From an uncultured Pseudomonadota bacterium (GTDB taxonomy: Bacteria > Pseudomonadota > Gammaproteobacteria > Burkholderiales > SG8-41): a DNA stretch of 28,431 nt. The notes under the pieces are model-generated. The model had not been told where the DNA came from, ran no database searches, and saw only the letters and a list, made by a program, of their open reading frames with translations. The translations under genes and the position numbers were made by a program. Below, piece by piece: positions 10,564 through 25,572 of the stretch (position 1 is the stretch's first letter; every line of letters starts with the position of its first letter). The DNA lies in contig CAMPGR010000032.1 of the NCBI GenBank assembly GCA_946885605.1, positions 1 through 28,431 on the forward strand, given 5' to 3'.

Positions 10564-11547
10564 ATGATGGTACTACGCGCATCCCATTCCACGTTTTTTG
10601 CGCTCGCGGGCGGTGCACTGCTCCTCGGCGCCTCCGTGCTTTCGGCTTCGGCAGCCGATTTTCCGACCAAGCCGGTACGGCTCGTCATCGGGTTCGCCCC
10701 CGGCGGGGGCACCGACACGACGGCGCGTGCGCTCAGCAACAAGCTGAGCGCATCCCTCGGCCAACAGGTCGTGGTGGACAATCGGCCCGGCCACTCCGGC
10801 ACGATCGCGGCCGACATCGTTTCGAAAGCGACCCCCGACGGCCACACGGTGCTGCTCGGCACGATCGCGCTCGTCGTCAATCCCAGCCTTACCGAGAAGA
10901 TGCCGTTCGATACCTTGAAGGATCTTGCGCCGGTGACACAGGCCGCCGATTCGACCAACATACTCGTGGTGCACCCCTCGGTTCCGGCGAAGTCCGTCAA
11001 GGAGCTGATCGCGCTTGCCCAGGCGAAGCCGTTGAATGCGGGATCGTCGGGCGTCGGCGGAACGGGTCACCTCGCCGTGGAGCTTTTCAATCTGCAGGCC
11101 GGCACGAAGATCACGCACGTGCCGTACAAAGGCGGCGGACCTGCGATGGTCGATCTGCTCGCCGGCAACATTCAGCTCATCTTCGCGACCGCAGCCAGCT
11201 CGATCGGCCACATCAAGGCGGGCAAGGTCCGCGCGATTGCCGTTTCGACGGCAAAGCGCTCTGCGCTCGTGCCGGATCTACCCACCGTGGCGGAAGCGGG
11301 GCTCCCCGGCTACGAAGCCAACAACTGGAACGGATTCTTCGTTCCGGCCAAGACGCCGCGGCCCATCATCAACCGGCTGAACAAGGAGATCGCCGCAGCG
11401 CTCAATGCGCCGGATATCAAGGAGTTCCTGTTCAAGCAGGGGCTCGATGCCGCGCCCAACACGCCGGAGCAGTTCGCCGCGTACATGAAGTCGGAAATGG
11501 CGAAGTGGGCGAAGGTGATCAAGGCGGCCGGCATCAAGCCGCAATGA
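10564..11547 (+). CDS. Tripartite tricarboxylate transporter (Bug/TctC) substrate-binding protein 1
   Basis: This 327-residue periplasmic receptor of the Bug/TctC family has an N-terminal signal peptide of about 31 residues (hydrophobic FFALAGGALLLGASVLSASA, cleavage near ASA-ADF). Family marks are the start of the mature protein FPTKPVRLVIGFAPGGGTDTTAR, DNRPGHSGTIAA, TPDGHTVLLGT, and the lobe motif VPYKGGGPAMVDLLAGNIQL. Bug proteins bind carboxylates through backbone contacts, so the ligand cannot be read from these motifs. ATG 10564 has GAGGAG upstream. No TctA/TctB membrane genes are nearby, so it either works with a transporter encoded elsewhere or as a sensor. Confidence 0.95.
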   Translation: MMVLRASHSTFFALAGGALLLGASVLSASAADFPTKPVRLVIGFAPGGGTDTTARALSNKLSASLGQQVVVDNRPGHSGTIAADIVSKATPDGHTVLLGTIALVVNPSLTEKMPFDTLKDLAPVTQAADSTNILVVHPSVPAKSVKELIALAQAKPLNAGSSGVGGTGHLAVELFNLQAGTKITHVPYKGGGPAMVDLLAGNIQLIFATAASSIGHIKAGKVRAIAVSTAKRSALVPDLPTVAEAGLPGYEANNWNGFFVPAKTPRPIINRLNKEIAAALNAPDIKEFLFKQGLDAAPNTPEQFAAYMKSEMAKWAKVIKAAGIKPQ

Positions 11548-11556
11548 TGTAACGGG

Positions 11557-11615
11557 TGCGGCGGCCGCCATCCGAGCCGCCGCAACCTTTCGCGACGGCG
11601 CTTGTTCAGCGCCGT
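11557..11615 (+). terminator. Tandem hairpins after Bug receptor 1
   Basis: There are two perfect inverted repeats. The first has 9-base arms, 11557-11565 with 11576-11584 (TGCGGCGGC), and is followed by ACCTTTCG. The second has 8-base arms, ACGGCGCT 11595-11602 with 11608-11615, and a 5-base loop. They follow the stop codon by about 10 bases and probably end or attenuate transcription before the second receptor gene. The T-tract is short. Confidence 0.5.
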
Positions 11616-11696
11616 ATCTCCGCAGTCCAGCACCGGAGGCCGCAACGCGCTCTTCCGGCCTCTCAATCACTTCAACAATCAAGGGGAGAGGATACT

Positions 11697-12713
11697 GTGG
11701 CCCGCTCGGCCGTTCTCGATTTTCCATTGGCATGGCGCACGGGGCGTGCGCTCGTATCGGCGTGTCTCGCCCTCTCGATCTCGGTTCCGCTGCATGCGCA
11801 AGCTTATCCGGCGCGATCGGTGCACCTCGTGACGGCGGCGCCCGCGGGCTCGGCATCCGACTTCGTCGCGCGGCTCCTCGCTCCCCAATTCTCGGCATCG
11901 CTCAAGGCGCCCTTCATCGTGGAAAATCGCCCCGATGCCGGCGGCACGAATGTGCTCAGAAGCGCTGTAGCCGACGGCCACACGTTGCAACTCGCGAGCC
12001 TTGGATCCCTCGTGATCGCGCCCGCCATCGCCAGCGCCCCCTACGATCCGCTGGAGTTTCTCGCGCCGGTTGCGCAAGTAGCATCCATGCCCAACGTCCT
12101 CACGGTGCATCCCGATGCTGGCGCCACCACGCTGGACGACCTTATCGCGCTCGCCAAGAAGGAGCCGGGAAGAATACGCTACGCCACCGCAGGCAACGGC
12201 ATGCCGGGCATCTATGCCGGGGAGCTCTTCAAGTCTGTCGCGAAGGTCGATCTCGCCTTCGTGCAGCCCAGGAATGGAATCGCTGCCCTCGACGATCTCG
12301 CGCAGGGCCGCGTGAATTTCCTCATCGCCGCTACGCCGACTGCCGTCCCGCACGTCAAGACCGGGAAGATCCGGGCGCTCGCGGTGACGGCGAACCGGCG
12401 GCTGCAGGCGCTGCCCGACGTACCGACCGCGATCGAGAACGGGCTCGCCGGCTACGAGGCGACCACCTGGTATGGCATCGTCGTGCCCGCCGGCACGCCG
12501 CAGCGGATCATCGATCGCCTGCACAAGGAAACGGCGAATATCCTCAGCTCGCCCGAGACCGCACAGACGCTCGAGGCGCGCGGCATCGAAGTGACGCCCA
12601 GCCTGCCGGAGCAGTTCTCGGCGTACATCAAGCGCGAGACTTTGAAGTGGAAGAAGGTCATAGGCGCGGCAGCCGATAACCAGGACGTCGTTCAGGCGTT
12701 CAGGAAGCGGTAA
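11697..12713 (+). CDS. Bug/TctC substrate-binding protein 2
   Basis: This 338-residue secreted receptor starts at GTG 11697, chosen because AAGGGGAGAGG stands just upstream and the frame before it is arginine/proline-rich noise. The signal peptide spans about residues 1-35 (RALVSACLALSISVPLHAQA, then YPARSVHLVTAAPAG). Bug motifs are present but degenerate: AAPAGSASDFVARLLA instead of the glycine-rich loop, ENRPDAGGTNV, and VQPRNGIAALDDLAQGRVNF where other members have VPYKGGG. That loop lines the ligand pocket, so its ligand probably differs from that of receptor 1. Its 3' end overlaps the 3' end of the opposite-strand hydrolase gene by 22 bases. Confidence 0.93.
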   Translation: MARSAVLDFPLAWRTGRALVSACLALSISVPLHAQAYPARSVHLVTAAPAGSASDFVARLLAPQFSASLKAPFIVENRPDAGGTNVLRSAVADGHTLQLASLGSLVIAPAIASAPYDPLEFLAPVAQVASMPNVLTVHPDAGATTLDDLIALAKKEPGRIRYATAGNGMPGIYAGELFKSVAKVDLAFVQPRNGIAALDDLAQGRVNFLIAATPTAVPHVKTGKIRALAVTANRRLQALPDVPTAIENGLAGYEATTWYGIVVPAGTPQRIIDRLHKETANILSSPETAQTLEARGIEVTPSLPEQFSAYIKRETLKWKKVIGAAADNQDVVQAFRKR

Positions 12714-16966: not shown

Positions 16967-17059
16967 CATTGCTGCAGCGAAGACTGTTTACAGATGTCCG
17001 GGCCTGTAGCAAGGGCTACAGAATATGCTTATGAAGCCGCAAGCGGGGAACACCCAGGA
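16932..17059 (-). ncRNA. Candidate structured small RNA (about 128 nt)
   Basis: A minus-strand TATAAT (17071-17066; weak -35 TTCCTG at 17093-17088) predicts a start near 17059, and the intrinsic terminator predicts an end near 16932. Between them lie two compact hairpins. One is CCG-CTTG-CGG. The other is a perfect 7-bp stem CTGTAGC-CCTT-GCTACAG (17021-17004). The outer segments GGTGTTCC and GGACATC could pair around them. No open frame with a ribosome-binding site lies inside. The closing stem slightly recalls 6S RNA but the transcript is too short, so I leave it unnamed. Alternatively it is the long 3' UTR of the hypothetical gene at 17246-17611. Confidence 0.5.
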
Positions 17060-17109
17060 AGGCCGATTATACTTCTCAATACACGATCAGGAACAGCGCG
17101 CTACCCGCC

Positions 17110-17184
17110 ATGCTTGACAGCCTCGCAATTCTTGTCGTAGGCGGTGTCTTTTTGATCGCGGGCACTGTCAAAGGAAAGAGGTGA
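17110..17184 (+). pseudogene. Remnant of a TauE/SafE-type membrane protein start (24 codons)
   Basis: The frame reads MLDSLAILVVGGVFLIAGTV-KGKR then stop. The hydrophobic stretch ending in AGTVKG looks like the first transmembrane segment of sulfite exporter TauE/SafE proteins, where KG is normally followed by a GLGLPT-like loop. Here the frame ends at once and no continuation was found in the other frames. It may be a decayed fragment or a real 24-residue membrane peptide. There is no clear ribosome-binding site. Confidence 0.35.
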
Positions 17185-17245
17185 CTTAGGTGAAAGGATG
17201 CAGTCAAGATCCTCGCAACTGCGGCGCGCCTGTAGCGCTTCTCCC

Positions 17246-17611
17246 TTACGGCGCGTCCGGGTCATCGGACGTGAGGATTTCCGGACTCCCCATAATGCGG
17301 TATTTCCGTGTTCCGATCTTGGTCACCTGCCGGCCATCGGCCGTCATGATGTGTTTCGTGCCCTTCCGCTCGGCATCGGGATCGTTTCGCGTACCGGCAT
17401 CAAGGTACTGCTGGTAGAGCGATAAGGTGTTGACGTCCCCGCGACTGTCCCGTGCCGTGAACGTTCCAACGAGCCGCGTGCGCTTCGTCGGCTCCTGACC
17501 CGGCTCGCCCTCTCTATTCGAACCGCGTCCGAGCAGTGCGCTTATCGCAATCCACACCACGCACGCTAGACCGCCTACTGCGGCAACCTGAGCTGTGATC
17601 GTTCCGTCCAT
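17246..17611 (-). CDS. Small hypothetical protein with N-terminal membrane anchor
   Basis: This 121-residue protein belongs to no family I recognise. Residues 8-28 (QVAAVGGLACVVWIAISALLG) form one transmembrane helix or uncleaved signal, followed by a charged linker (GSNREGEPGQEPTKRT). Then comes a soluble region with LVGTFTARDSRGDVNTLSLYQQYLDAGT and a C-terminal strand-rich part GRQVTKIGTRKYRIMGSPEILTS. The composition looks like real coding sequence. The ribosome-binding site is not convincing: AGGAGG lies too far upstream of ATG 17611. It follows the PilZ gene by about 95 bases in the same direction and could share its transcript. Confidence 0.6.
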   Translation of the reverse strand: MDGTITAQVAAVGGLACVVWIAISALLGRGSNREGEPGQEPTKRTRLVGTFTARDSRGDVNTLSLYQQYLDAGTRNDPDAERKGTKHIMTADGRQVTKIGTRKYRIMGSPEILTSDDPDAP

Positions 17612-17705
17612 ACGCTATACGGTGTCCGCCTCCTCTGACGTAGCCTTCCGATTCATTCGTTCACCCGCTTCAGCGGCCCTGATCATCTCGCGATCATAGT
17701 GCTGA

Positions 17706-18203
17706 TCATAGCCGCGTGCGTCGCTCAGCGAGCTTTGGCTGACCGGAATAGTGGCGCCGCAGGAACTGATCCCAATTTCTCTGCGACTCATCATCGGCTT
17801 CCACGAGCTCGGCCCCGAAACAACCGTCGTTGAAGTGCTTTACCTTGATCCTCCCGGAAAAGCCGGACCCCGGTTCGAGCTCAAATTCCACATCCAGCTT
17901 CAATCCTATCTCGAGGTCATAGTTGCAAATGAGGAACATCCCGTTCTCACTGATGTCCTGGATCAGGCATGCAAAACGATGGTCTTCGTATCTCAATATG
18001 CCTCTGCGGCTGATTTGAAAACGGCGGGAACGCTCCACCTGATCCCTGTTCATTGGCGTTCCGACCGCATGCGAAGACATTCGCCCGTCTTTGCCGCGGA
18101 ACTGGGCGGGCTGCTGTGTCGATTGATGCTTCTGTCTTGAAGCAGGCGATGGCGACGCGGCGCGGCCGGCCGGTTGTCGCAGTGGCGATGAGTAAGACGA
18201 CAT
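17706..18203 (-). CDS. PilZ domain protein (cyclic di-GMP receptor)
   Basis: This 165-residue protein has an about 60-residue low-complexity, glutamine- and serine-rich N-terminus followed by one PilZ domain (about 66-137). The two cyclic di-GMP-binding motifs are intact: R-x3-R as R67-G-I-L-R71, and D-x-S-x-x-G as D83-I-S-E-N-G88. The beta-barrel strands follow (MFLICNYDLEIGLKLDVEFELE, GRIKVKHFNDGCFGAELVE). The start at ATG 18203 is chosen for its strong GGGGAGAAAGG site directly upstream; ATG 18053 would also give a PilZ domain. A GEMM-I riboswitch lies upstream in the same transcript, so the ligand probably controls both synthesis and activity of this receptor. The output partner is unknown. 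Confidence 0.93.
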   Translation of the reverse strand: MSSYSSPLRQPAGRAASPSPASRQKHQSTQQPAQFRGKDGRMSSHAVGTPMNRDQVERSRRFQISRRGILRYEDHRFACLIQDISENGMFLICNYDLEIGLKLDVEFELEPGSGFSGRIKVKHFNDGCFGAELVEADDESQRNWDQFLRRHYSGQPKLAERRTRL

Positions 18204-18204
18204 C

Positions 18205-18279
18205 CTTTCTCCCCGGAAAATGGCTCCTGTTTCGGGCAGCCGCGACTGAGAAAATGATACTTTCTCAGCGGGGAGAAAG
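18205..18279 (-). promoter_or_regulatory. Expression platform: anti-Shine-Dalgarno segment and hairpin
   Basis: In the pilZ leader CTTTCTCCCCG (18279-18269) is perfectly complementary over 11 bases to CGGGGAGAAAG (18215-18205), which is the pilZ ribosome-binding site. Between them an 8-bp hairpin, CTGAGAAA with TTTCTCAG (18268-18246), would bring the two strands together. Folding this way would bury the ribosome-binding site, so translation should depend on the fold of the upstream aptamer. Confidence 0.65.
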
Positions 18280-18303
18280 CCGATGGCTACGAGGGAAAGT
18301 AAT

Positions 18304-18430
18304 CGGGCAAAAACAGAAATGCCGAAGCCCGGCTACCAGCCCTCGGCAATCTCTCGGTCATGGAGCCCTGGGGCTCTTTAGACCAGCGACTTTGCGTCCC
18401 CGCCTTTCGGTCGGGTTTGCCCTTTTCGAA
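18304..18430 (-). promoter_or_regulatory. Cyclic di-GMP-I (GEMM-I) riboswitch upstream of pilZ
   Basis: The minus strand carries the GEMM-I core in order. GGGCAAACC is at 18422-18414. A short helix is capped by a GAAA tetraloop (18408-18405). GACGCAAAG is at 18398-18390. A second helix follows whose TCTAAAG (18382-18376) and CATGA (18362-18358) resemble the 11-nt tetraloop receptor, capped by GAGCC-CCAG-GGCTC. The 3' part is GGTAGCCGGGCTTCGG. The middle G of AGGGCAAA is kept, which in this class favours cyclic di-GMP over cyclic GMP-AMP. Its 3' strand also forms a hairpin (18347-18321) followed by ATTTCTGTTTTT, a possible terminator. TTTGCCC (18311-18305) can pair with the core GGGCAAA. Confidence 0.88.
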
Positions 18431-18572
18431 GTCAGCGGCGCATGTACGAAACGCCGCGTGGTTCGTAGTGTAGGCGGAATGTCGCCGGAGCAACTATGAA
18501 CTTTCTCACGAATCCCGTTGGTAATATGTCAATAGGATTGATGCAGCAAGATGCGGCACTACGCTGCCCGCT

Positions 18573-18607
18573 CCGGAGTAGAGGTATCTTGCACGCCTCC
18601 ACTCCGG
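18573..18607 (-). terminator. Long hairpin after gabD
   Basis: A 12-bp stem with one G-U pair (18607-18596 with 18584-18573, CCGGAGT core) and an 11-base loop begins eight bases after the gabD stop. It lacks a T-tract. It separates gabD from the PilZ leader; a TTGACA hexamer on the minus strand (18532-18527) just beyond could be the -35 of the pilZ promoter, though no good -10 follows. Confidence 0.5.
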
Positions 18608-18614
18608 ATGGCTC

Positions 18615-20096
18615 TTACTTGTGAATGTCGCCCATGCAGAGATACTTGACCTCAAGGAATTCATCCATGCCGTATTTCGATCCCTCGCGTCCGATCCCCG
18701 ACTGCTTCACTCCGCCGAAAGGCGCGACCTCGGTCGAGATGATGCCGACATTGATGCCGACGATGCCGGATTCCAGTCCTTCGGCAACGCGCCAGATGCG
18801 GCCGATGTCGCGGCTGTAGAAGTAGGCCGCGAGCCCGTACTCGGTGTCGTTCGCAAGCCGGATCAGCTCCTCTTCGGTCTTGAACCGATAGAGCGGCGCG
18901 ACCGGCCCGAACGTCTCCTCGTGCGTCACCTTCATCGCCGGCGTCACATCCGCTAGCACCGTGGGCTGGAAGTACTGCCCGCCCTTTTCGTGCCGCTTGC
19001 CGCCCGTCATGACGCGCGCGCCCTTCGACAGTGCGTCGTCGATGTGCTCTTCCACTTTTTCGACCGCTTTCATGTCGATGAGCGGCCCCTGCACCACGCC
19101 TTCTTCGAGGCCGTTGCCCACTTTCATCTGGCTTACCTTGTCCGCAAACTTCCTGGCGAAGGCCTCGTACACCCCGTCCTGCGCGAAGATGCGGTTCGCG
19201 CAGACGCAGGTCTGGCCGGTGTTGCGATACTTGGATGCCATGGCGCCTTCCACCGCCGAGTCGAGATCCGCGTCGTCGAACACAATGAACGGTGCATTGC
19301 CGCCGAGCTCGAGCGAGACCTTCTTCACCGTGCTCGCGCACTGCGCCATCAACTGCTTGCCGATCTCGGTGGAGCCGGTGAAGGTGAACTTGCGCACGAG
19401 CGGGTTCGTCGTGAGCTCCTTGCCGATCGGCCCGGAAGCGCCGGTCACCACCGACAGCACGCCTTTCGGTATCCCGGCGCGCTCGGCAAGCTCGCATAGC
19501 GCGAGCGCCGAGTACGGCGTCGCGGACGCGGGCTTGATCACCATCGTGCACCCTGCCGCAAGCGCGGGGCCCGCCTTACGCGTGATCATCGCGTTGGGGA
19601 AGTTCCACGGCGTCACCGCGGCGCACACGCCGATCGGCTGCTTGATGACGACGATTCGCCGGTCCGGCCACGGCGCCGGTATGGTATCGCCATAGACGCG
19701 TTTCGCTTCTTCCCCGAACCACTCGATGAAGGAAGCGCCGTACGCGATCTCGCCGCGCGATTCGGCGAGCGGCTTGCCCTGTTCCACCGTCATGAGGACC
19801 GCAAGATCCTCCTGGTTCGCCATCATGAGCTCGAACCACTTGCGCAGGCACGCCGCGCGCTCTTTCGCGGTCTTCGCGCGCCATGCCGGCCAGGCGGCGT
19901 GCGCCGCCTCTATGGCGCGGCGTGTTTCCGCGGCGCCCATGTTGGGCACCGTGCCGATCTGCTGGCCGTCCGCCGGATTGTGCACGGCGATCGTCGCCTT
20001 GCTGTCCGCATCCACCCATTCGCCGTTGATGTAGCACTGCTGGCGGAACAGGCTCATGTCCTTCAGTTGAAAAGCGGGTTTCACTTTCTGGAGCAT
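18615..20096 (-). CDS. gabD: NAD(P)-dependent succinate-semialdehyde dehydrogenase
   Basis: This 493-residue aldehyde dehydrogenase is of the GabD type, oxidising succinate semialdehyde (or glutarate semialdehyde) to the diacid in the cytoplasm. Landmarks are CYINGEWVDADSK (21-33), TPWNFPNAMITRK (162-174), FTFTGSTEIGK (237-247), LELGGNAPFIVFDDADLD with general base Glu263, and NTGQTCVCANR with nucleophile Cys297 followed by Cys299, the redox pair seen in GabD. It ends in GREGSKYGMDEFLEVKYLCMGDI, typical of GabD. ATG 20096 has GGAGG eight bases upstream. No gabT is adjacent. It would feed semialdehydes from 4-aminobutyrate or other catabolism into the TCA cycle. Confidence 0.95.
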   Translation of the reverse strand: MLQKVKPAFQLKDMSLFRQQCYINGEWVDADSKATIAVHNPADGQQIGTVPNMGAAETRRAIEAAHAAWPAWRAKTAKERAACLRKWFELMMANQEDLAVLMTVEQGKPLAESRGEIAYGASFIEWFGEEAKRVYGDTIPAPWPDRRIVVIKQPIGVCAAVTPWNFPNAMITRKAGPALAAGCTMVIKPASATPYSALALCELAERAGIPKGVLSVVTGASGPIGKELTTNPLVRKFTFTGSTEIGKQLMAQCASTVKKVSLELGGNAPFIVFDDADLDSAVEGAMASKYRNTGQTCVCANRIFAQDGVYEAFARKFADKVSQMKVGNGLEEGVVQGPLIDMKAVEKVEEHIDDALSKGARVMTGGKRHEKGGQYFQPTVLADVTPAMKVTHEETFGPVAPLYRFKTEEELIRLANDTEYGLAAYFYSRDIGRIWRVAEGLESGIVGINVGIISTEVAPFGGVKQSGIGREGSKYGMDEFLEVKYLCMGDIHK

Positions 20097-23573: not shown

Positions 23574-24559
23574 GGAGTCCCGCATCGCTCATTGCACTCT
23601 GCGGCGCCGCGCTCGTCGCACTTGCCGCGAATGGCGCAGCCGCCGCGCCGGCTCCGAAAGACGCCTACCCCAACAAGCCCGTCCGCATGGTGATTCCCTT
23701 TGCGGCCGGCGGTTTCTCGGATGTGGTCGGGCGCATCGTCACTCAGAAACTATCGGAGCAACTGGGTCAGCCGGTGGTGGCCGACAACCGGCCGGGCGCG
23801 AGCGGCATCATCGGAAGTGAGATCGTCGCGCGCGCCGTTCCCGACGGCTACACGCTGCTCCTCAACAGCTTCAATCACGTGGTGAACCCGAGCCTCATGC
23901 GGCTGCCGTACGACCCGATCAAGGGGTTCACCGTCATCAGCATGATTGCGGGTGGACCCCCGCTCGTCATGATGGTGAACCCGTCCTCGCCGATCAAGTC
24001 CGTGCAAGACCTGATATCACTCGCGAAAAAGCGGCCTGGGCATCTGAATTACGCCAGTTCGGGCATCGGCACATCGGGGCACCTGATCGGCGAGCTCTTC
24101 AAGCTCAGGACCGGAGTCGACATCGTGCATGTCGCATACAAAGGCAGCGGCGCGTCGATGACCGCGATCGTCGGTGGCGAAGTCAATATGGCATCCACCT
24201 ATATGCCAGTTGCCCTGCCGCAGGTTCAGTCCGGGAAGCTGCGCGCGCTTGCCGTCACCAGCGCACGCCGCTCGCCGGTGCTGCCGGATGTGCCGACGAT
24301 GGCGGAGACGGGCGTGAAAGGCATCGAAGTCATTGGATTCGCCGGCCTGCTCGGGCCGCCCAAGATGCCGGCGCCGCTCGTCAAGCGCCTGCACGGGGAG
24401 ATGGTCAAGCTCGCGAAGGACCCGGACTTCGTCAAGCGCTACGGGGCCTACGACATGGAGCCTGTAGCGACTACGGGGGAAGAATTCATCCGCTACATGC
24501 AGCGCGAAATTGCGCTGTGGTCGGAAGTGATCCGCAGCGCGGGCGTCAAGCCGCGGTAA
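23570..24559 (+). CDS. Bug/TctC substrate-binding protein 3
   Basis: This 329-residue periplasmic receptor has a signal peptide of about 26 residues (LIALCGAALVALAANGAAAA) and mature start YPNKPVRMVIPFAAGGFSDVVGR. The Bug family segments are ADNRPGASGIIGSEIVARAVPDGYTLLL, FNHVVNPSLM, SSGIGTSGHLIGELFKL and VAYKGSGASMTAIVGGEVN. A strong AGGAGG site precedes ATG 23570, which overlaps the M20 stop by four bases. The next gene is a close paralogue. Coupling with a hydrolase suggests that the bound solute is processed by that enzyme after uptake. No membrane components are adjacent. Confidence 0.96.
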   Translation: MRSPASLIALCGAALVALAANGAAAAPAPKDAYPNKPVRMVIPFAAGGFSDVVGRIVTQKLSEQLGQPVVADNRPGASGIIGSEIVARAVPDGYTLLLNSFNHVVNPSLMRLPYDPIKGFTVISMIAGGPPLVMMVNPSSPIKSVQDLISLAKKRPGHLNYASSGIGTSGHLIGELFKLRTGVDIVHVAYKGSGASMTAIVGGEVNMASTYMPVALPQVQSGKLRALAVTSARRSPVLPDVPTMAETGVKGIEVIGFAGLLGPPKMPAPLVKRLHGEMVKLAKDPDFVKRYGAYDMEPVATTGEEFIRYMQREIALWSEVIRSAGVKPR

Positions 24560-24582
24560 CCATCAACCGAAGGAAAAAATAG

Positions 24583-25572
24583 ATGAGGAGAATTGTCATT
24601 CACGCCGCAACGCTCGGCGTGCTTGCCGCTGCCCCCGGTTCTCAGGCGATTGCCGCACCACCGCCCGCGAAAGCCGGCTATCCGGAGCGGCCCATCCGCA
24701 TGGTGATACCGTTCGGCGCAGGCGGCCTTTCCGACGTGGTGGGGCGCATTGTGGCCCAGAAACTCTCCGAAAGTCTCGGGCAATCGGTGGTTGCGGACAA
24801 CCGCCCCGGTGCAAGCGGCATCATCGGCAGCGAGATCGTCGCCCGCGCAGCGCCCGACGGCTACACGCTGCTTCTCAGCAGCTTCAATCACGTGGTCAAT
24901 CCGAGTCTCATGAAGCTGCCATACGACCCGATCAAGGACTTCACCTCCATCAGCCTCATCGCTGACGGGCCGCCGCTCGTCATGCTCGTCAGCCCTTCGT
25001 CGCCCCTGAAGGGCGTGAAGGACCTGATCGCGCTTGCGAAGAAGCGGCCCGGGCAATTGAATTACGGCAGCTCCGGCATCGGCACTTCCGGTCACCTCAT
25101 CGGGGAATTTATAAAGCTCAAGACCGGCGTGGATATGGTGCACGTCGCGTACAAGAGCAGCTCGCTTTCGATGCAGGCCATCCTGGGCGGGGAAATTACG
25201 ACGATCTCCACCTACATGCCGACCGCCCTGCCCCAGGTCAAGTCCGGCCGCTTGCGTCCGATTGCCGTTACGTCGTCGCGCCGCACTCCGGCGTTGCCCG
25301 ACATCCCGACCATGGCCGAATCCGGAATCGACGGACTGGAGGTAAGCGGGTTCACGGGGCTCATGGGGCCGCCCAAGATGCCGGAGCACCTCGTAAAGCG
25401 CCTGCATGCCGAGGCGGTCAAGATGGCCAAAGACCGGGATTTCGCCGCGCGCCACGCTGTGTATGACATGCAGCCGGTGGCCAGCACGCCGCAAGAGTTC
25501 GTGCGCTATATGCAGCGCGAAATCGAGCGTTGGGGAGTAGTGATCCGCAGCGCCGGAATCAAAACTCAATAA
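24583..25572 (+). CDS. Bug/TctC substrate-binding protein 4 (tandem duplicate)
   Basis: This 329-residue receptor has the same length as the gene before it and is by eye about 70 percent identical over the mature part, starting 23 bases after its stop. The signal peptide is at about 1-25 (VIHAATLGVLAAAPGSQAIAA). The pocket loop reads VAYKSSSLSMQAILGGEIT instead of VAYKGSGASMTAIVGGEVN. That change at the ligand-facing loop, with the rest conserved, suggests divergence in specificity after a tandem duplication. GAAGGAAAAAATAG precedes ATG 24583. It ends 10 bases from the convergent SirB1-type gene with no visible terminator. Confidence 0.96.
   Translation: MRRIVIHAATLGVLAAAPGSQAIAAPPPAKAGYPERPIRMVIPFGAGGLSDVVGRIVAQKLSESLGQSVVADNRPGASGIIGSEIVARAAPDGYTLLLSSFNHVVNPSLMKLPYDPIKDFTSISLIADGPPLVMLVSPSSPLKGVKDLIALAKKRPGQLNYGSSGIGTSGHLIGEFIKLKTGVDMVHVAYKSSSLSMQAILGGEITTISTYMPTALPQVKSGRLRPIAVTSSRRTPALPDIPTMAESGIDGLEVSGFTGLMGPPKMPEHLVKRLHAEAVKMAKDRDFAARHAVYDMQPVASTPQEFVRYMQREIERWGVVIRSAGIKTQ

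Follow-up and report, generated by a model that had tools for sequence, protein, structure and literature searches.

A c-di-GMP-I aptamer before a PilZ-domain gene, and a related leader before other genes of a betaproteobacterial family

The aptamer and the PilZ-domain gene downstream

In the window (the whole 28,431-nt stretch of DNA analyzed here), a c-di-GMP-I (GEMM) aptamer lies on the minus strand at 18342-18431, and the first gene downstream of it on that strand encodes a PilZ-domain protein, of 165 aa if read from the ATG at 18203 (17706-18203). A cmscan of the whole window returned one Rfam match at the gathering score, RF01051, at 18431-18342 of the minus strand (63.2 bits versus a gathering score of 35, E 2.3e-10, full model 1-87), and our own model R1 gave 71 bits at the same place. 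An earlier sequence-only reading had put a GEMM-I riboswitch in the leader of this PilZ gene and had named an RF01051 search of the minus strand as the way to check it; the score bears that assignment out, and every motif quoted there is found in the stretch, namely GGGCAAACC, a GAAA loop, GACGCAAAG, TCTAAAG, and CATGA. Helix P1 (18341-18431) is formed by CUUCG (18431-18427) with CGAGG (18345-18341), as judged from the sequence and a pair check, its counterpart at locus L034 being CUUCG with CGAAG. Helices P2 and P3, the GAAA (GNRA) loop, and the UCUAAAG/CAUGA receptor-like stretch are all present as well. No sigma-70-like site was found in 17000-18700, where 0.7 were expected.

The core positions of the hit, G11 (18421), A35 (18397), and C86 (18346), are all present in the window, and we take them to be the equivalents of G20, A47, and C92 of the Vc2 aptamer. 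Across 24 aptamers, the window's included, G11 and C86 are invariant, and the A35 position is a G in 3. Excerpts of PMC11218506 describe G20, A47, and C92 of c-di-GMP-I aptamers as bases that contact the ligand.

Helix P3 departs from the common form. The window aptamer carries GACCGAGAGAU where most of the 24 aptamers have GACAGCGGGAU or a sequence near it, and two P3 pairs are nonstandard (C.A and G.A) in the Rfam register. With an alternative register (C46-G79, U47-A78, and G48-C76), all 15 pairs tested are standard. Moreover, a P3 variant of the form GACCGAG[AG]GAUUGCC is common to nine loci of the related genomes G402 to G406, with GGCCGAG in L182 and L198 and ACGACCGAG in L189. Because of this full pairing and this sharing, the P3 of the window looks like a lineage form rather than a product of decay, and we rejected the idea of a degenerate aptamer with a broken P3. 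The aptamer stands at the weak end, its 71 bits with model R1 being the lowest of 82 matches in one locus set; weaker matches occur in a second set.

An A at the G20 position is the mark of the cyclic GMP-AMP (GEMM-Ib) variant. It is absent from the window aptamer, whose base at 18421, equated with position 20, is a G. According to excerpts of PMC7288161, cGAMP can be bound by a G20A mutant. We therefore regard it as very improbable that the aptamer senses cyclic GMP-AMP or is a variant of the GGC type (RF03167, c-di-GMP-I-GGC): such variants do exist among RF01051 hits, and L191 and L192, from the same bacterial family, score better with RF03167 and are thus c-di-GMP-I-GGC aptamers, but best-of-clan reporting gives RF01051 alone for the window. 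Two further loci, L193 and L185, resemble c-di-GMP-I-GGC aptamers yet are reported as RF01051.

The ATG at 18203 comes 138 nt after the aptamer, with no ORF of at least 80 aa between the aptamer and the PilZ ORF on the minus strand. The PilZ identity of the gene, also proposed earlier, was upheld by Pfam (PF07238, 37.2 bits versus a cutoff of 22.5, residues 57-148 of the ORF 18203-17706). Its start, placed at 18203 in the sequence-only reading, is less firm. Of 28 homologues, 26 do not exceed 119 aa; the best, a 115-aa protein with 99% identity, begins at Met51, i.e., at the ATG at 18053; every database match covers at most 70% of the 165-aa frame; and residues 1 to 50 have no homologue among the database relatives. 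A strong Shine-Dalgarno sequence, GGGGAGAAAGG, precedes the ATG at 18203. Both starts are possible, 18203 or, as in most homologues, 18053, which gives 115 aa.

The PilZ domain (17760-18035, minus strand) is marked by R58-x-R60-R61 and D83-x-S-x-x-G88. It had been claimed that both ligand-binding motifs of the family are kept, the first as R67-x3-R71. The second motif stands, with D83 in 27, S85 in 28, and G88 in all 29 aligned sequences. The first was rejected: R71 occurs in 2 of the 29, and the conserved arginines are R58, R60, and R61, which together with R66 are invariant in the 26 aligned sequences that reach them. RxxxR at the canonical spacing is absent, since E57 occupies D83-26, with R61 at D-22 and R58 at D-25. 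Binding of c-di-GMP by this protein is plausible from its sequence rather than proved, because the arginine spacing is noncanonical. The predicted model has block-mean pLDDT values of 88 to 94 over residues 61-150, except for 77 at residues 121-130, and supports a beta-barrel fold. By predicted fold, the top Foldseek structures are BcsA, VCA0042, and MapZ, with YcgR lower down, and the matches include c-di-GMP-bound PilZ structures. By sequence, the best solved match is PA4608/MapZ, and it is weak (E 0.005).

A 121-aa ORF of unknown function follows 94 nt after the PilZ gene (17246-17611, minus strand) and is possibly cotranscribed with it. It matches nine database proteins, itself included (eight relatives), two of which lie on contigs equal in size to those of PilZ relatives (62641 for P0152 and P0011; 3354 for P0153 and P0021); because of these equal sizes, the two genes are likely neighbors there too. 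Elsewhere, the plus strand of the window carries four TctC-type solute receptors in two tandem pairs (10564-12713 and 23729-25572), and the window also holds two MmgE/PrpD genes, an aconitase-family gene, and an enolase-like gene.

Alternative folds of the leader

Overlapping the 3' side of the aptamer, on the same strand, lies a terminator-like hairpin (18309-18354). It consists of UGCCGAGGGCUGGUAGCCGGGCUUCGGCA (18348-18320), whose stem is extended by AGAGAU/AUUUCU, followed by UUUCUGUUUUU (18319-18309). The 5' arm of the hairpin lies within the aptamer, being its own P3/P1 3' strand, and includes C86, predicted to contact the ligand. The stem has an energy of -19.5 kcal/mol; it was matched by 2 of 1,000 dinucleotide shuffles and is the best among 110 leaders from the bacterial order, that is, those of 150 in which the start codon comes 30 to 260 nt after the aptamer. 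A simple terminator scan over 1.7 kb showed no excess of sites (2 versus 1.2 expected). None of 200 shuffles folds as well as the whole leader (z -3.56).

Folding the growing transcript in silico showed that the aptamer is complete and near the minimum energy at 92 nt (-35.2 versus -35.9 kcal/mol) and again at 105 nt (-38.0 versus -38.9 kcal/mol), before the 3' arm of the hairpin exists. At 122 nt, the equilibrium model puts the hairpin fold at -54.1 kcal/mol and the full aptamer at -42.6 kcal/mol. Because the terminator fold wins at equilibrium by 11.5 kcal/mol, the on/off choice must be kinetic, made during transcription. Since the hairpin uses the 3' strand of the aptamer, ligand binding and hairpin formation would be mutually exclusive, and an ON switch is thus predicted. 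In such a cotranscriptional choice, the aptamer would be completed before the 3' arm of the hairpin is made; a bound ligand would then hold the aptamer and let RNA polymerase pass, and the hairpin would win where ligand is lacking.

Transcripts that stop at the hairpin would be short, about 120 nt, and the leader RNA might thus act mainly as a separate small RNA. The two inputs would likewise be uncoupled if the PilZ protein were no c-di-GMP receptor, for which its noncanonical arginine spacing, with E57 at D83-26, could speak. We hold this pair of alternatives to be quite improbable, given that R58, R60, and R61 are kept in 26 of 26 sequences and that the nearest solved relatives of the protein are PilZ proteins that bind c-di-GMP.

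Farther downstream, a second pairing involves the Shine-Dalgarno region. Element a (CUUUCUCCCCG, 18269-18279, inverted repeat I3) is complementary over 11 bp to CGGGGAGAAAG (18205-18215), the Shine-Dalgarno region of the ATG at 18203, and also to the aptamer core. Nested inside this stem are elements b and c, the hairpin CUGAGAAA/UUUCUCAG (18246-18268; inverted repeat I7 and predicted fold); all these parts lie on the minus strand. The duplex of element a with the Shine-Dalgarno region reaches p 0.005 in the window, and that with the core reaches -23.4 kcal/mol (p 0.05). In every modeled state the Shine-Dalgarno sequence of the ATG at 18203 is buried (unpaired 0.00 to 0.07), so that translation would be permanently low unless it actually starts at 18053. 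In these models, the stem could be a brake or a slow OFF gate, or it may be irrelevant if translation starts at 18053.

The complementarity of element a to both partners suggests an opposite scheme, a translational OFF switch, in which a ligand-locked aptamer would free element a to pair with the Shine-Dalgarno sequence of the ATG at 18203, and without ligand element a would pair with the core and leave that sequence open. In its favor, the pairing with the core appears in the RNAalifold consensus of ten leaders (the window and the nine related loci), and the altered element a of L189 still pairs with its core at -25.5 kcal/mol. Nevertheless, we consider this scheme rather unlikely: the pairing with the Shine-Dalgarno region wins at equilibrium with or without the aptamer (0.82 to 0.94), the pairing with the core is no better than in shuffles in L190, L178, and L196, and any anti-Shine-Dalgarno element partly matches the GGGGA of the core. 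Nor does the core complementarity extend to the order at large (109 leaders in the core test, mean z -0.16, p 0.12), which leaves an anti-core element unsupported as a general design there. As a design common to the order, Shine-Dalgarno stems fared weakly too. Stems of at least 7 bp occur in 34 of 110 leaders versus 20.9 expected, those of at least 9 bp in 12 versus 4.6 expected, and those of at least 10 bp in 2 versus 2.2 expected.

The leader in related genomes and the census of the order

In the five related genomes, the nine loci carry a near-identical aptamer and about 100 nt of further leader. With the window, this makes ten sequences of about 190 nt of aptamer plus platform, with a mean column identity of 85%. 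By eye, the homology stops before the genes, which encode cNMP-binding proteins at L179, L181, L182, L190, and L198, ankyrin proteins at L176 and L196, and a pilin at L189; at L178, the contig ends before the gene. The cNMP-binding proteins behind this c-di-GMP leader are single-domain proteins of 146 to 152 aa. Conserved blocks of the leader are complementary to the aptamer (GCCC/GGGC, CGGUAAUCUC/GAGAUUGCCG, UCGUA with the P3-P1 strand, and element a with the core); in the window, GCCC lies at 18305-18308 on the minus strand, is complementary to the aptamer GGGC at 18422-18419, is invariant in all ten sequences, and pairs with this GGGC in the predicted fold.

A 12-bp counterpart of the hairpin stem is possible in the nine related leaders, with one mismatch in L181. 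When scored over 104 cells, 97.1% were paired, versus 42 to 61% when the structure was slid by 1 to 3 columns, a control biased toward the counterpart stem, since its structure came from the same sequences. Two-sided changes were found in none of its 12 pairs, and 500 of 500 letter shuffles reached the observed score. By minimum energy, L178 and L190 prefer another fold over the stem, and these two are the only ones of the nine relatives with a long U tract after it. The window's version of this stem is a compact hairpin with UUUCUGUUUUU after it. The energy of the Shine-Dalgarno duplex was not significant in the five cNMP leaders and the one pilin leader; in the two ankyrin leaders it was likewise not significant with the start initially chosen (p 0.57 and 0.61), and only when the start was shifted to a GGACAC site did it give p 0.01 and 0.005.

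Very stable downstream stems are seen in both modeled states of the window leader, and they might mask the effect of ligand, leaving an RNA that binds c-di-GMP and switches poorly, as excerpts of PMC11218506 describe for Bc1 of Bacillus thuringiensis. We judge this unlikely, as the preservation of about 190 nt in ten sequences argues for use, though within one bacterial family.

For the census, RF01051 matches were found in at least 146 of the 399 genomes of the order sample. Among the matches listed, 155 in number, four duplicates in overlapping loci were removed, and the 151 aptamers left gave 147 proteins, because L157 has no downstream DNA and three tandem aptamers share a gene already taken. 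Tandem c-di-GMP-I aptamers about 240 to 265 nt apart are seen at L020/L044, L024/L045, and L032. As the downstream gene we took whichever same-strand ORF with a start within 600 nt was longest, a rule that may pick a wrong ORF or start. Among the matches listed, the 147 proteins, the window's included, comprise 49 DUF1631 proteins, 16 subtilases, and 4 PilZ proteins. DUF1631 is thereby the commonest family after c-di-GMP-I aptamers in the order (L014 to L160); its C-terminal part looks PilZ-like by eye only, Pfam found no PilZ domain in the one full-length protein searched, and the literature searched, at the level of listings, yielded no link of DUF1631 to c-di-GMP.

The other PilZ cases are REC-PilZ genes, 3 of the 146 other downstream genes among the matches listed (L055, L091, and L111). 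From this recurrence, receptor genes would seem to be genuine targets of the riboswitch class; the three cases resemble one another and may represent a single event. Seven genomes hold 37 PilZ matches, 0 to 12 each, on which basis PilZ genes after the riboswitch are probably above background.

The MlaA gene of the window is closest, among the 399 genomes of the order, to those of G001 (61%), G323 (66%), and their family. In 17 of 74 genomes of that family, RF01051 was over the cutoff, and 30 of the 31 family matches were taken in (G424:C93 was left out). A strong homologue of the window PilZ protein occurs only once in the 399 order and 74 family genomes searched, in G001, and no aptamer is present at that locus (L001, the same place as L002), the sole close PilZ homologue with DNA context. 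With model R1, none of the 13 loci L001 to L013 has an aptamer; these loci are 12 places, and all but L001/L002 hold distant relatives. The idea that the riboswitch regularly accompanies this PilZ family is hence unsupported. A tblastn search of viral contigs found no close relatives, and plasmids gave a single 46-nt match only.

A predicted feed-forward circuit and comparison with known systems

Taken together, these data suggest that the ligand-bound fold of the aptamer would exclude the terminator-like hairpin, so that c-di-GMP would turn on the PilZ gene. Provided that the protein binds c-di-GMP, as predicted, the signal would thereby increase its receptor in amount as well as in activity; we give this reading an even chance. 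An 11-bp stem over the Shine-Dalgarno sequence of the ATG at 18203 would add a second gate that damps translation. The earlier term "closed control loop" does not fit such a circuit: the signal would act on receptor amount and on receptor activity, and no feedback on c-di-GMP is seen in the circuit as drawn from the sequence. Wired in this way, the gene would belong to a coherent feed-forward loop, which should give a sharper response. The predicted target is a protein receptor of the same signal that the RNA senses; the signal would set the dose of its own reader.

On a wider view, which we offer tentatively and rate somewhat below an even chance, a c-di-GMP leader of about 190 nt was copied or moved within one betaproteobacterial family to sites before small second-messenger receptors and surface genes, the targets being PilZ in the window and cNMP-binding, ankyrin, or pilin genes in relatives. 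Acting through two controls in series, a transcription gate and then a Shine-Dalgarno trap, it would make receptor dose dependent on c-di-GMP, in a feed-forward loop with a cross-wire to cyclic-nucleotide sensing. The new element here is the set of nine related loci, in which a closely similar aptamer and some 100 nt of leader precede genes for cNMP-binding, ankyrin, or pilin proteins, apart from the one contig end. Through the cNMP-binding genes, a link from c-di-GMP to cyclic-mononucleotide sensing is possible, one that is concrete and testable.

The locus thus represents a known riboswitch class with an unusual target, a PilZ receptor gene. Many GEMM-associated genes serve the production, degradation, or signaling of c-di-GMP, according to excerpts of PMC7266159. 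No description of a riboswitch before a PilZ gene was found in the parts of the literature searched, including those of PMC7266159, PMC12564702, PMC11218506, PMC7288161, and PMC11124144.

Compared with RF01051 aptamers generally, the window aptamer is complete, with the core bases, the GAAA loop, and the receptor-like stretch, but its P3 can use another pairing register and its target is a single-domain PilZ gene. Its protein shares the PilZ fold (TM 0.68 by target length, 5y4r_C) and DxSxxG with PA4608/MapZ, also a single-domain PilZ protein, at 16% identity, and differs in its arginines, which stand at D-25, D-23, and D-22, in contrast to R9 and R13 of PA4608 at D-26 and D-22. We know of no riboswitch before PA4608. 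In the REC-PilZ loci L055, L091, and L111, from three other genomes of the order, an aptamer likewise lies 66 to 140 nt before a PilZ-domain gene; unlike that of the window, their proteins have two domains and 250 to 260 aa, their PilZ domain begins with RxxxR, and by eye their leaders are without the window's platform. The arrangement thus occurs with two different kinds of PilZ protein. Finally, the Bc1 leader of B. thuringiensis, as described in excerpts of PMC11218506, likewise has a c-di-GMP-I aptamer, an extended platform, and multiple control stems; it places two terminators before a chemoreceptor gene, whereas in the window the PilZ gene is preceded by a single terminator-like hairpin and a single Shine-Dalgarno stem.
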